Under the pieces are notes generated by a model that saw only the letters and a program-made list of their open reading frames with translations, was not told where the DNA came from and ran no database searches. The translations under genes and the position numbers were made by a program. 49,553 bases of DNA from Candidatus Jorgensenbacteria bacterium GW2011_GWA1_48_11 (GTDB lineage: Bacteria; Patescibacteriota; Minisyncoccia; UBA6257; GWB1-50-10), in the NCBI GenBank assembly GCA_001003475.1, contig LCPF01000003.1, positions 1-49,553 of the forward strand, given 5' to 3'. Shown piece after piece: positions 3,921 to 39,362 of the stretch (the stretch's first letter is position 1; each line of letters begins with the position of its first letter).

Positions 3921-4056
3921 CCCTCACCTTTCAAAGATTACGCTTCGTGAAAAGCGATCTTTGAAATTCAATGTCCCTTTCCTCAAATTATTTTTCCTGA
4001 TTTCAACCATGATTATATCGACTAAACTAAGCTTCTTATCTTCGAAGGGTGAGGGA
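3921..4056 (-). repeat. Intergenic leader-peptide element, copy 1 (mreB/holB)
   Basis: A 136-bp element filling the whole gap between the mreB stop (TAG 4057-4059) and the holB ATG (3918-3920). Read on the minus strand it opens with TCCCTCACCCTTCGAAGAT and closes with ATCTTTGAAAGGTGAGGG, an 18-bp inverted repeat with one C-A mismatch and one G-U pair. It contains the conserved AAGCTTA block, a 28-codon frame and an inner hairpin with arms around AAAGATCGCTT and AAGCGTAATCTTT. The other copies are at 12308, 17560 and 39227. See the findings for the proposed role. Confidence 0.93.
3924..4010 (-). CDS. Conserved 28-aa leader peptide, copy 1
   Basis: An ATG (4008-4010) opens a 28-codon frame that ends with TGA at 3924-3926, 3 nt before the holB ATG and in the same frame (TGA-GGG-ATG). 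The C-terminal half reads KGTLNFKDRFSRSVIFER. The other three copies have the same length and a matching tail, while the first ten residues differ. No clear SD precedes its ATG; initiation may depend on ribosomes arriving from mreB, whose stop is 46 nt upstream. That it is translated is an inference from conservation of start, stop and length. Confidence 0.6.
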   Translation of the reverse strand: MVEIRKNNLRKGTLNFKDRFSRSVIFER

Positions 4057-5064
4057 CTACCTGCGGTTCAACAAGGTCCGCTTGTAAACATCGAGGTGAT
4101 TCAAAATAATGGCCGTGCCTCTCGCCACGCAAAAGAAAGGCTCCTCGGCGGCGTAAGCCGTGACGCCAAGGGAACGCTTGAAAAACTCCTCGATGTCCCG
4201 AAGTTGGGCGCTGCCGCCCGAAAGAATGATGCCTTTCTCCATGATGTCGGCGGCCAATTCCGGCGGCGTCACGTTGAAAACGGCCTGAACTGAATTGATG
4301 ATGTCCAAAAGATGGGGCGCAATCGCTTCCGCCACTTCGTTCGAATTCACGACAATGTCCCGCGGCAAACCCGAAGCGAGATCCCGGCCGCGCACTTTCA
4401 TTTCAATCTTGGAACGGTTGGGCATGGCCGAACCCACCGAAATCTTGATGTTTTCAGCCGTGCTTTCGCCGATCGCAAGGCCGTATTTCTTCTTGATAAA
4501 TTCCGAAATCGACTGGTCAAAACGGTTGCCGGCCACCCGCAAACTGCCCCAGGCAACGATGCCGCCCAAAGAAATCACGGCTACTTCGGTCGTGCCGCCG
4601 CCGATATTCACGATCATGTTGCCCTCCGAGGAATGGATCGGGATGCCGGCGCCCAAAGAGGCCAAAAGCGGTTCCTTAACGAGATAAACTTCTTTGGCGC
4701 CGCCTTCCTTGGCGGCGTTCATCACCGCCCGATACTCGGTCGAGGTGATGCCGGCCGGCACCGAGATCACGACATCGGGTCGGAAGATGTTGAAGGCGCC
4801 CAAACTCTTCGAAATGAAATATCTGAGCATCGTTTGGGTGATGTAATATTCCGCGATCACGCCGTCCTTCAAGGGCTTGTAAGTGACGATGTTTTCGGGC
4901 GTGCGGCCGACCATTTCCTTAGCTTCAAGCCCCACGGCCAAAACCGTATTATCGGGCTTGCGTAAAGCCACGGCCGTCGGTTCGTTAATGACGATTCCCT
5001 TGTCAGGCAAAAAAACGAGAGTGTTCGTCGTGCCTAAATCAATGCCGATTTTTCTTATGAACAT
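4057..5064 (-). CDS. mreB: Rod shape-determining protein MreB
   Basis: 335 aa, full length for the actin-like MreB ATPase that organises elongation-phase wall synthesis. Phosphate-1 motif IGIDLGTTNT (about residues 7-15), phosphate-2 motif NIGGGTTEVAVIS (about 153-165) and the adenosine motif GIILSGGSAQL are all present. It is first in a run mreB-holB-frr-rseP-proS-mreB2. The upstream promoter (TTGAAT-18-TAATAT) lies at 5085-5114. Coupling of mreB to clamp-loader and ribosome-recycling genes is seen only through the intervening repeat element. Confidence 0.97.
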   Translation of the reverse strand: MFIRKIGIDLGTTNTLVFLPDKGIVINEPTAVALRKPDNTVLAVGLEAKEMVGRTPENIVTYKPLKDGVIAEYYITQTMLRYFISKSLGAFNIFRPDVVISVPAGITSTEYRAVMNAAKEGGAKEVYLVKEPLLASLGAGIPIHSSEGNMIVNIGGGTTEVAVISLGGIVAWGSLRVAGNRFDQSISEFIKKKYGLAIGESTAENIKISVGSAMPNRSKIEMKVRGRDLASGLPRDIVVNSNEVAEAIAPHLLDIINSVQAVFNVTPPELAADIMEKGIILSGGSAQLRDIEEFFKRSLGVTAYAAEEPFFCVARGTAIILNHLDVYKRTLLNRR

Positions 5065-12307: not shown

Positions 12308-12442
12308 CCCTCACCCTTCAAAGATTACGCTTTTCATGAAGAGGTCCTTGAAGATTAACGGCCCTTTATTTGAACATCTTATTTTATTTATAAACATGGT
12401 TTATTGGTTAAATTAAGCTTCCTATCTTTGAAGGGTGAGGGA
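12308..12442 (-). repeat. Intergenic leader-peptide element, copy 2
   Basis: 135 bp between the stop of the FtsA-like gene (TAA 12443-12445) and the ATG of the 552-aa membrane protein (12305-12307). Its arms, TCCCTCACCCTTCAAAGAT and ATCTTTGAAGGGTGAGGG, pair perfectly over 18 bp. It has the AAGCTTAATTTAA block and a 28-codon frame. The inner hairpin is the weakest of the four: TTCAAGGA pairs with TCTTTGAA including one G-U. Confidence 0.93.
12311..12397 (-). CDS. Conserved 28-aa leader peptide, copy 2
   Basis: ATG 12395-12397 to TGA 12311-12313, exactly 28 codons, again followed by GGG-ATG of the next gene in frame. The tail reads NKGPLIFKDLFMKSVIFEG, matching copies 1, 3 and 4 at KG-x-L-x5-F-x2-SVIFE. 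The N-terminal ten residues are unlike the other copies. Confidence 0.6.
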   Translation of the reverse strand: MFINKIRCSNKGPLIFKDLFMKSVIFEG

Positions 12443-17559: not shown

Positions 17560-17694
17560 CCCTCACCCTTCAAAGATTACGCTTCCAAAAAAGCGGTCTT
17601 TGAGTATTAATGGCCCTTTATTAAAACTGATGTTTTTCCTGAAATTCATTGTTTTTAATTCAAATGAAGCTTTCTATCCTTGAAGAGTGAGGGG
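17560..17694 (-). repeat. Intergenic leader-peptide element, copy 3 (dnaG/rpoD)
   Basis: 135 bp ending at the rpoD ATG (17557-17559). Arms CCCCTCACTCTTCAAGGAT and ATCTTTGAAGGGTGAGGG pair with two G-U wobbles instead of mismatches. This is the only copy not touching the upstream stop: dnaG ends at 17731, 36 bp away, but a TAA still lies at the element edge (17695-17697). The inner hairpin CGCTT-TTTTGG-AAGCG is strong. Confidence 0.92.
17563..17649 (-). CDS. Conserved 28-aa leader peptide, copy 3
   Basis: ATG 17647-17649 to TGA 17563-17565, 28 codons, then GGG and the rpoD ATG in frame. The tail reads NKGPLILKDRFFGSVIFEG. Relative to copy 2 most changes in the tail are conservative, while the nucleotide sequence in the first third is unrelated. 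Confidence 0.6.
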   Translation of the reverse strand: MNFRKNISFNKGPLILKDRFFGSVIFEG

Positions 17695-20477: not shown

Positions 20478-20511
20478 AAACAGGCAGTATGACATGTCAT
20501 ACCGCCTGTTT
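20478..20511. terminator. Palindromic terminator between the DUF378 and HD genes
   Basis: A 34-bp palindrome with one mismatch, core GTATGACATGTCATAC, arms AAACAGGC / GCCTGTTT. T-tracts follow on both strands (minus: GTTTGTTTT; plus: GTTTTTA). It ends the DUF378 transcript. The core TATGACATGTCATA recurs in the palindrome at 32868-32897. Confidence 0.8.
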
Positions 20512-30529: not shown

Positions 30530-31579
30530 TCAAGCCTCGTCGCCCAGAATTTTACCCACGATGCCCTGCCACTCGTCCTCGGAATGGAATTGAACGGTCA
30601 TTTTCCCCCGACCGTTGCTCTTCCTGATCTTAACCGGCGCGCCCAGCTTTTCCTCGATTTTATTTTCCCAAAAACGGCTCTCCGGATCATGAGCAAAAGG
30701 TTTTTGAATCCTGGTCCGCATCTCGCGAACGCTCAACTTGTCCTCGAGTATATTTTTGAAAACCCGGTTCTGCTCTTCGGGATTTTGAATAACCAAGAGC
30801 GTCCGCGCCTGACTTTCGCTAATTTTGCCGGAAACCAGGGCATCCTGAATATGCGGCGGCAAGTTTAAAAGCCTCAGGGTGTTGGCCACCACCTCCCGGC
30901 TTTTGCCGACCCGGGCCGCGATCTCCCGCTGAACCAGACCGAATTCATCCTGAAGTCGGGCATAAGCCTTGGCTTCTTCAAGCGAATTCAAATCTCTCCG
31001 CTGGATGTTTTCGATCAGAGCCATTTCAAGTCTCACTCGGTGCTCGTCGATCTTCTTCACGATAGCCGGCACCCGCTCCAAACCCAGAAGCTTCGCCGCC
31101 ATTAGCCGCCGCTCGCCGGCGATCAGTTGATATTCCACGGCCGTGCCGTAGTCGGTTTCCCTCACGACCTTCGAAACGACGATCGGCTGGATAATGCCGA
31201 ACTCCCTGATGGACTGGGCCAACTCTTCGACGCTTGCCGGATCAAAGGTCTTCCGCGGCTGAAGAGGATTCGATTTTATCTTTTCGACTTCTATGTTGAA
31301 AACAGATTCGCTGTCGGGGGTTTTTTTTGTCGAAGCGGATACCCGCGGCCGCCAACTCTTGTCCCCGCCTTCTCCATGATGCGGGGAATTCGTTTGAAAA
31401 AGTGTATCGGAAATCGAGCGGGCAGGGTGTTCCGCGAAGCGGAACGAGCGAGATTGAGGGACAAACGGCGTTTCGCCGCGCTGGGGCGAAACGACCGCGT
31501 CTTTTGAAAACGAATTCCCCGCATCAGTTGTTCTTTTTTTCGGAATTAACGATTCCAAACCACGGCCGATTAGTGACAT
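30530..31579 (-). CDS. parB: Chromosome-partitioning protein ParB, with a palindromic insertion
   Basis: 349 aa from ATG 31579 (MSLIGRGLESLIPKK); an ATG at 31597 is also possible. The ParB/Srx CTPase domain is clear: NPLQPRKTFDP, LAQSIREFGIIQPIVVSK, YQLIAGERRLMAAKLLG, IENIQRRDLNSLEEAKAY, then the HTH VQREIAARVGKSREVVANTLRLL and a C-terminal dimerisation part. It would load at parS and slide as a CTP clamp. About residues 18-70 are an in-frame palindromic element (31377-31526) placed in the linker between the ParA-stimulating N-terminal peptide and the core. It is not adjacent to parA, which lies about 1.3 kb away. Confidence 0.95.
   Translation of the reverse strand: MSLIGRGLESLIPKKRTTDAGNSFSKDAVVSPQRGETPFVPQSRSFRFAEHPARSISDTLFQTNSPHHGEGGDKSWRPRVSASTKKTPDSESVFNIEVEKIKSNPLQPRKTFDPASVEELAQSIREFGIIQPIVVSKVVRETDYGTAVEYQLIAGERRLMAAKLLGLERVPAIVKKIDEHRVRLEMALIENIQRRDLNSLEEAKAYARLQDEFGLVQREIAARVGKSREVVANTLRLLNLPPHIQDALVSGKISESQARTLLVIQNPEEQNRVFKNILEDKLSVREMRTRIQKPFAHDPESRFWENKIEEKLGAPVKIRKSNGRGKMTVQFHSEDEWQGIVGKILGDEA
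31377..31526 (-). repeat. 150-bp palindromic element inserted in frame in parB
   Basis: Bounded by perfect 19-bp inverted repeats, TGATGCGGGGAATTCGTTT (31377-31395) and AAACGAATTCCCCGCATCA (31508-31526). It contains nested palindromes (GTTCCGCGAAGCGGAAC; GGCGTTTCGCC; CGTTTCGCCCC). 150 bp equals 50 codons, so the frame is kept. In the protein it appears as a low-complexity stretch from DAGNSFSKD to QTNSPHH. Confidence 0.85.
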
Positions 31580-31839
31580 TTGATCTAATTTTAACATTAA
31601 TCTGACGACCCCGCACTAATTTTCATCAAATTTCACGATGAATATAATGCCTACTATTTAAATGTATTATTTGGCAATACGCTTCGCCCACAACGGGGTG
31701 GGCCTATTCGGCCCGCGCGCATTGTTCATTAATTCACGGAAAAATTATCAGGGGGTGCTCAATTTTATGACTTCGCTCCGCTCAGATAAAATTGGCAAAC
31801 TAAAACAGAGGGGCTAAAAGCGACTTCTGGTAATCACTA

Positions 31840-32838: not shown

Positions 32839-32897
32839 CGCCTCAAAATTAACCACGTGGTTAATTTTGAGGCGCTATGACATGTCATAGCGCCTCA
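32839..32897. repeat. Two overlapping perfect palindromes downstream of parA
   Basis: A 36-bp perfect palindrome (32839-32874, arms CGCCTCAAAATTAACCAC and its complement, centre CCACGTGG) overlaps by 7 bp a 30-bp perfect palindrome (32868-32897, TGAGGCGCTATGACA and its complement). The shared TGAGGCG can pair with either side, so in RNA the hairpins exclude each other. No T-tract follows on the minus strand, so it is not an ordinary terminator. A cruciform, parS-like or REP-like role is possible. Confidence 0.85.
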
Positions 32898-39226: not shown

Positions 39227-39362
39227 CCCTCACCTTTCAAAGATTACGCTTCTCGAGAAGCGATCTTCGAAAATTAACGTCCCTTTTATTAAATTTGTTA
39301 TTTGGATTTTATTCATAATTAAATCTATTTGATTAAGCTTTCTATCTTTGAAGGATGAGGGA
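39227..39362 (-). repeat. Intergenic leader-peptide element, copy 4 (rpoB/rpoC)
   Basis: 136 bp exactly between the rpoB stop (TAA 39363-39365) and the rpoC ATG (39224-39226). Arms TCCCTCATCCTTCAAAGAT and ATCTTTGAAAGGTGAGGG pair with one mismatch and one G-U. The inner hairpin is the best of the four: CGCTTC-TCGA-GAAGCG flanked by AAGAT / ATCTT with a TA bulge. The AAGCTTAAT block is conserved. Confidence 0.93.
39230..39316 (-). CDS. Conserved 28-aa leader peptide, copy 4
   Basis: ATG 39314-39316 to TGA 39230-39232, 28 codons, then GGG and the rpoC ATG in frame. Tail KGTLIFEDRFSRSVIFER, nearly identical to copy 1 although the two genes served are unrelated. A longer frame that runs in from rpoB sequence exists, but only the part from this ATG is conserved. 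Confidence 0.62.
   Translation of the reverse strand: MNKIQITNLIKGTLIFEDRFSRSVIFER

Follow-up and report, generated by a model that had tools for sequence, protein, structure and literature searches.

A short inverted-repeat element fills the mreB/holB junction

The window, by which we mean the whole stretch of 49,553 nucleotides analysed here, carries mreB (5064-4057) and holB, the gene for delta' (3920-3153), both on the minus strand. The interval between the mreB stop codon (TAG, 4059-4057) and the holB start codon (ATG, 3920-3918) is filled exactly by a short element bounded by terminal inverted repeats (TIRs), so that the minus strand of 3921-4056 reads TAG-TCCCTCACCCTTCGAAGAT...TTTCAAAGATCGCTTTTCACGAAGCGTAATCTTTGAAAGGTGAGGG-ATG and its plus strand is antisense to mreB and holB. 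A plus-strand leader at 3961-4293, taken from the plus-strand ORF list, was dropped since the Shine-Dalgarno (SD) sequence and both flanking genes read on the minus strand. An Rfam scan of the window returned two tRNAs only, the element having no Rfam match. The element, its parts and its three further full copies in the window are as follows.

3921-4056, minus strand: short TIR element of about 135 nt between mreB and holB, one of 13 full copies in the genome
4038-4056, minus strand: left TIR, directly adjoining the mreB stop codon and serving as the 5' arm in the outer helix
3921-3939, minus strand: right TIR and 3' arm, with the SD AAAGGTGAGGG directly 5' of the holB ATG
3930-3967, minus strand: inner subterminal hairpin, competing with the outer helix for ATCTTTGAA, 90% paired
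3924-4010, minus strand: mini-ORF of 28 codons (MVEIRKNNLRKGTLNFKDRFSRSVIFER, then stop), ending in a TGA within the SD, 3 nt short of the holB ATG
12308-12442, minus strand: second copy, between gene 13597-12443 and a 552-aa gene (12307-10649), mini-ORF 12397-12311
17560-17694, minus strand: third copy, between dnaG and rpoD (17559-16345), mini-ORF 17649-17563
39227-39362, minus strand: fourth copy, between the rpoB TAA (39365-39363) and the rpoC ATG (39226-39224), mini-ORF 39316-39230

Full copies lie upstream of genes with unrelated functions

The genome (691 kb, 96% complete) holds 13 full copies, four of them in the window, and the other 12 are 71-79% identical to that at 3921-4056. All 13 are oriented as the gene that follows and have their right end flush with its ATG, as GGTGAGGG-ATG in 12 copies and GGATGAGGG-ATG in the remaining one. 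In 10 of the 13, a long ORF upstream has its stop codon directly against the left end, while in L005, L006 and L010 the flush TAA is not the terminus of any long upstream ORF. The TAA adjoining the third copy does not end dnaG, whose stop codon is found 36 nt further upstream. Occupied junctions include rpoB/rpoC, mreB/holB, rplR/rpsE, dnaG/rpoD and, twice, pilB/pilC, and further full copies sit before mraY, mraZ, uvrC, glyS and a PilO-like gene. The genes downstream (rpoC, holB, rpsE, rpoD, mraZ, mraY, uvrC, glyS, pilC) are functionally unrelated, which argues against one specific regulatory signal. With their dispersed copies, length of about 135 nt and conserved TIRs of 18-19 bp, the elements have the make-up of a MITE family.

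Besides the full copies, we found a degenerate one upstream of nusB. In the 23S-5S rRNA spacer there is a 73-nt relic-like copy (L315:1500-1573, G000:C2:63740-63812) that has the same ends but lacks an ORF. Another short element of this genome (L316:1501-1610, G000:C1:271412-271521) has a different interior and slightly diverged ends, and its 25-codon ORF terminates at the TGA of GGTGAGAG-ATG.

The element RNA can form two mutually exclusive helices

An earlier note on this DNA had proposed that the SD-bearing 3' arm pairs either with the 5' arm or with an inner arm. Both pairings are present on the minus strand. In the outer helix, TCCCTCACCCTTCGAAGAT (4056-4038) pairs with ATCTTTGAAAGGTGAGGGA over 18-19 bp, and 97.2% of positions are paired over the 13 genome copies, compared with 43-63% in slid controls. 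In the inner helix, TTTCAAAGAT-CGCTT pairs with AAGCG-TA-ATCTTTGAAA, at 89.9% against 43-55% in slid controls. Because the two helices share the arm ATCTTTGAA, they are mutually exclusive, as had been claimed, and the inner one indeed lies within a leader frame, the 28-codon ORF (4010-3924) spanning it. The folds are stable at 3921-4056 (z = -5.0) and also in an additional copy, 39227-39362 (z = -4.8), with 0 of 200 shuffles matching.

Sequence changes among the copies tend to preserve these pairings, in line with the earlier statement that they are mostly kept as G-U pairs. All changes in the left arm are transitions, and eight of nine retain pairing, mostly as G-U, where 25% would be expected; in the inner-left arm the pair is kept in 18 of 28 changes against an expected 21%. 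The P values of this test are optimistic, as common ancestry may account for some of the changes and the inner arm has a coding role too. The G-U-preserving changes suggest selection on RNA pairing. True compensatory changes, which the earlier note had named as the support to seek in both helices, are rare: two pairs in the inner helix, whose covariation score lies above most shuffles (7/500), and one pair in the outer helix, whose score does not stand out from shuffles (118/500). Strict covariation is thus weak in the inner helix and absent from the outer one and, with its one to two double changes, was set aside as proof of both. Divergence is 0.03-0.07 in the TIRs and 0.32-0.38 in the interior. 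As TIRs of a dispersed mobile element, the outer arms are complementary regardless of any regulation.

Covering the 5' arm, rather than the inner arm, is predicted to free the SD

In a thermodynamic model, the outer fold is favoured by about 15-27 kcal/mol and the SD of the naked RNA is unpaired with a probability of 0.01. Masking the first 18 nt, to mimic a ribosome at the stop codon of the upstream gene, raises this value to 0.36, and masking the inner-left arm alone leaves it at a mean of 0.01. The earlier note had envisaged an attenuation-like control, with a ribosome on the leader altering access to the SD. The exclusive helices, one of them sequestering the SD, and the leader ORF stand; the switch itself does not follow from the model, in which the position of a ribosome on the leader alone leaves the SD paired. 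As only cover of the 5' arm frees the SD, stalling on the inner arm is a less likely switch than termination of the upstream gene or the movement of a mini-ORF ribosome across the right arm. Furthermore, we saw no regulatory codons in the leader peptide, and the leaders, unrelated between genomes, do not tie their codons to a signal for the regulated gene.

The mini-ORF and the position of its stop codon often persist in different interiors

An ATG-started ORF ending at most 13 nt from the next ATG is found in 13 of 13 full copies, with no clear SD at its own start. The pN/pS ratio of its tail is 0.45 in frame, compared with 0.79 and 1.52 in the other frames, and the upstream part is relaxed (0.87); constraint from the hairpin may contribute to the low value of the tail. 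Among interiors from other genomes of Paceibacteria, 9 of 14 have an ORF of at least 20 codons running into the right end where about 1.2 would be expected (Fisher combined p 1.3e-5, the interiors possibly not all being independent). A further element of the own genome with another interior repeats the pattern, and the families G324, G002 and G212 are without the ORF. Across genomes, it appears that the peptide sequence is unimportant and that the ORF and its stop position matter. Because the leader peptide varies while the ORF and the position of its stop persist, coupling by termination and re-initiation fits better than a sensing attenuation.

The ends are patchily distributed and orthologous junctions are mostly empty in relatives

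Of 244 genomes of the order, nine show identical or near-identical 18-bp ends, a patchy distribution; there the ends bound interiors different from those of the own genome and are mostly placed directly before an ATG. The rpoB/rpoC, mreB/holB and rplR/rpsE junctions of relatives in the same family are for the most part tight and lack the element, the closest rpoC relative having the empty junction TAAttATG, so that these orthologous sites show presence and absence as in MITEs. At rplR/rpsE, one relative (L340) has a left end belonging to another element (ATGAATCCCGTTAGA). Patchy ends together with empty junctions are the pattern of MITE families.

Target duplications of about 5 bp at start codons, of the form ATGAA-T...-ATGAA, were found in 10 of 36 long elements (described below), compared with 2.0 when mispaired, and in 5 of 24 short ones, compared with 1.3. 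The own-genome copies, flanked as TAA-T...-ATG, have no 5-bp duplication. A simple 2-bp AT duplication was discarded, being inseparable from the AT of the ATG itself (18 of 24 short elements, mispaired control 18.0). In viral contigs there was a single match, in a non-element context and probably due to chance.

Longer elements with similar ends encode a GIY-YIG nuclease

A search with AAGGGTGAGGGATG in 384 genomes of the class matched the 3' ends of GIY-YIG ORFs. These belong to long units of about 290 bp, arranged as stop-TCCCTCACCCTT..ATG-GIY-YIG (87-88 aa)..AAGGGTGAGGG-ATG, in which CCCTCACC-type TIRs flank the ORF and its TGA is placed as in the short elements; in several it is the very TGA of GGTGAGGG. 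Two long elements match Pfam PF01541 with E values of 3.6e-16 and 8.8e-15, and the domain lies in an intergenic ORF, as in free-standing GIY-YIG homing endonucleases. The nuclease also resembles the UPF0213/GIY-YIG single-domain proteins (PDB 1zg2 and 1ywl, E 5e-6 to 5e-4), to which it is equal in domain and size and for which we know of no description as ends-bounded mobile elements.

Short and long forms co-occur (p 1.3e-5, from counts taken by hand). In the genome G324 both have the TIR CCCTCACCCTTAAAGCAT, and elsewhere their ends are similar, not identical. Among 114 standalone GIY-YIG ORFs of relatives, 48 reach an inverted-repeat score of at least 12, compared with 0.9% of mispaired controls. 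These ORFs carry several TIR families (CCCTCACCCTT, CCCGTTAGAG, CCCCGCACC and others), and many members of the CCCTCACC and CCCGTTAG families terminate flush with an ATG. The mini-ORF tail KGxLxFKDRFxRSVIFEG aligns in register, up to the stop, with the GIY-YIG tail KGFxSLKSRLxxSLxLEG, at a score that 2 of 5000 permutations of the columns reach when the shared end residues are excluded, a likeness that spans about 15 residues. The mini-ORF probably represents the deleted remains of a nuclease ORF.

In the own genome we found no intact CCCTCACC-type GIY-YIG element, so the family may be inactive there; its GIY-YIG elements (L181 and L182) bear other TIRs. L182 (G000:C1:41844-42098) has CCCGTTAGAGGCA ends, the stop codon of its ORF overlaps the ATG of the gene that follows, which looks like fmt (MKYAFFGTPEFAA), and its left flank repeats ATGAA. 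Two more GIY-YIG ORFs of this genome (L183 and L184) lie beside tRNA-like sequence. In another genome (L277, G040:C3) the right end of a short element directly precedes a GIY-YIG element, as though one were inserted in the other or both had an end in common. Three long GIY-YIG elements with CCCCCCACCACTT-type ends (L199, L292 and L301) sit flush before GGAGGAAAGTC. This sequence resembles the start of RNase P RNA, but its Rfam match is below threshold and rnpB is not claimed as their target.

Discussion

Considering the above results, we take the sequence at 3921-4056 for a mobile element that carries its own translation-coupling cassette, not for a dedicated attenuator. More precisely, it would be an old insertion of a non-autonomous, MITE-like element of about 135 bp from a family whose long members encode only a GIY-YIG nuclease, a reading to which we assign a probability of roughly 0.7 and in which the coupling and the mobilisation are inferred. 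From association, we infer that GIY-YIG proteins are the mobilising enzymes. The element would have inserted exactly between the stop codon of mreB and the start codon of holB, where its 18-bp TIRs would pair in the mRNA and hide the SD contained in the right end. A ribosome finishing the upstream gene would then cover the left arm and open the SD. Alternatively or in addition, a ribosome on the mini-ORF would open the right arm, terminate on the SD just 3 nt short of the ATG, and re-initiate on holB. Such a cassette would keep the stop/start coupling of the original operon junction, so that insertion could be tolerated in essential operons.

One rival reading is a translational attenuator, in which stalling or speed of a ribosome on the leader peptide toggles the SD between the helices. 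Two exclusive helices, a leader ORF in 13 of 13 full copies, pairing-preserving changes in both helices, the inner covariation score and the pN/pS of 0.45 in the ORF tail are all what such a device would leave. However, the TIRs account for the outer helix, which remains the dominant fold with the inner arm blocked, the leader sequences are unrelated across genomes, the downstream genes share no function and there are no obvious sensor codons; we therefore regard this possibility as unlikely. We hold much the same view of an inert MITE whose palindromic ends fold in RNA as a by-product only, with ORF and SD as passive passengers. Conservation of the TIRs (0.03-0.07 against 0.32-0.38 in the interior) is expected for ends recognised by a transposase, and the patchy distribution, the ORF-less 73-nt copy in the 23S-5S spacer and the outer helix without strict covariation fit as well. 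Against it, the flush ATG and the ORF running into the SD recur around unrelated interiors, the left-arm changes keep G-U pairs, a signature at the RNA level, and the copies sit before essential genes whose SD they replace.

An ancient, immobile cis-regulatory RNA of this set of operons seems highly improbable to us. Several copies do lie upstream of housekeeping genes and fold strongly, but the same junctions lack the element in relatives, only nine of the order's 244 genomes have the ends, and in other genomes these enclose other interiors at other loci; nor does the element match Rfam. A mobile element carrying a coupling cassette thus remains our preferred reading. On a broader scale, there is perhaps an even chance that these units form an undescribed class of bacterial transposable elements, with TIR-bounded units of about 290 bp whose sole gene is a GIY-YIG nuclease, short non-autonomous derivatives, insertion at start codons within operons, and an SD/re-initiation cassette in the right end that keeps essential operons expressed. 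Searches of an open-access literature library on GIY-YIG together with terminal inverted repeats, MITEs or Patescibacteria gave no description of such TIR-bounded elements.

Bacterial MITEs and small repeats such as BOX, RUP and Correia are short, non-autonomous, TIR-bounded and dispersed, and can affect neighbouring transcripts. The short elements share their small size, TIRs, dispersal and non-autonomy; unlike them, they are tied to a GIY-YIG nuclease instead of a DDE transposase, have a fixed position and orientation at start codons, and supply an SD and an ORF ending at the start codon. The cassette recalls bicistronic design leaders, in which the stop codon of a short leader cistron overlaps the SD or start of the next gene, but those are engineered or gene-specific, whereas here the cassette is carried by a mobile element.

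To our knowledge, neither TIRs nor dispersed short non-autonomous derivatives have been described for the free-standing endonucleases of T4-like phages. In these phages, free-standing GIY-YIG genes (segA-G) and the HNH gene mobE are intergenic, the nrdA/mobE stop/start overlap UAAUGA suggests coupling, and RNA hairpins hide a ribosome-binding site (PMC2988022). Small intergenic ORFs, stop/start overlap and hairpins hiding a ribosome-binding site are common to both systems; in T4 the sequestered site is that of the endonuclease gene itself, and here it is that of the downstream host gene. In CPR rRNA genes, GIY-YIG insertions unlike group I/II introns and short (<200 bp) unexplained insertions have been reported (PMC11270868). 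They come from the same phylum and likewise comprise GIY-YIG-encoding and short forms; they lie inside rRNA genes, and inverted repeats have 0 occurrences in the text of that report. They are perhaps of the same kind as the present elements, which may explain them. Our reading also connects TIR-bounded mobile units with the standalone GIY-YIG ORFs that abound in these genomes, and it offers an explanation of how streamlined Patescibacteria could accommodate mobile DNA in their dense operons and still express essential genes.

Other repeats in the window

At 31377-31526, 26-nt inverted repeats (92% complementary) surround an in-frame stretch of 150 bp within the N-terminal region of a ParB-like gene (30530-31597, minus strand, named from its sequence), resembling a palindromic element inserted in a coding region. 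Two near-perfect 26-nt palindromes, AGGC..TATGACATGTCATA..GCCT, lie at 20482-20507 and 32870-32895 and are 88% alike.
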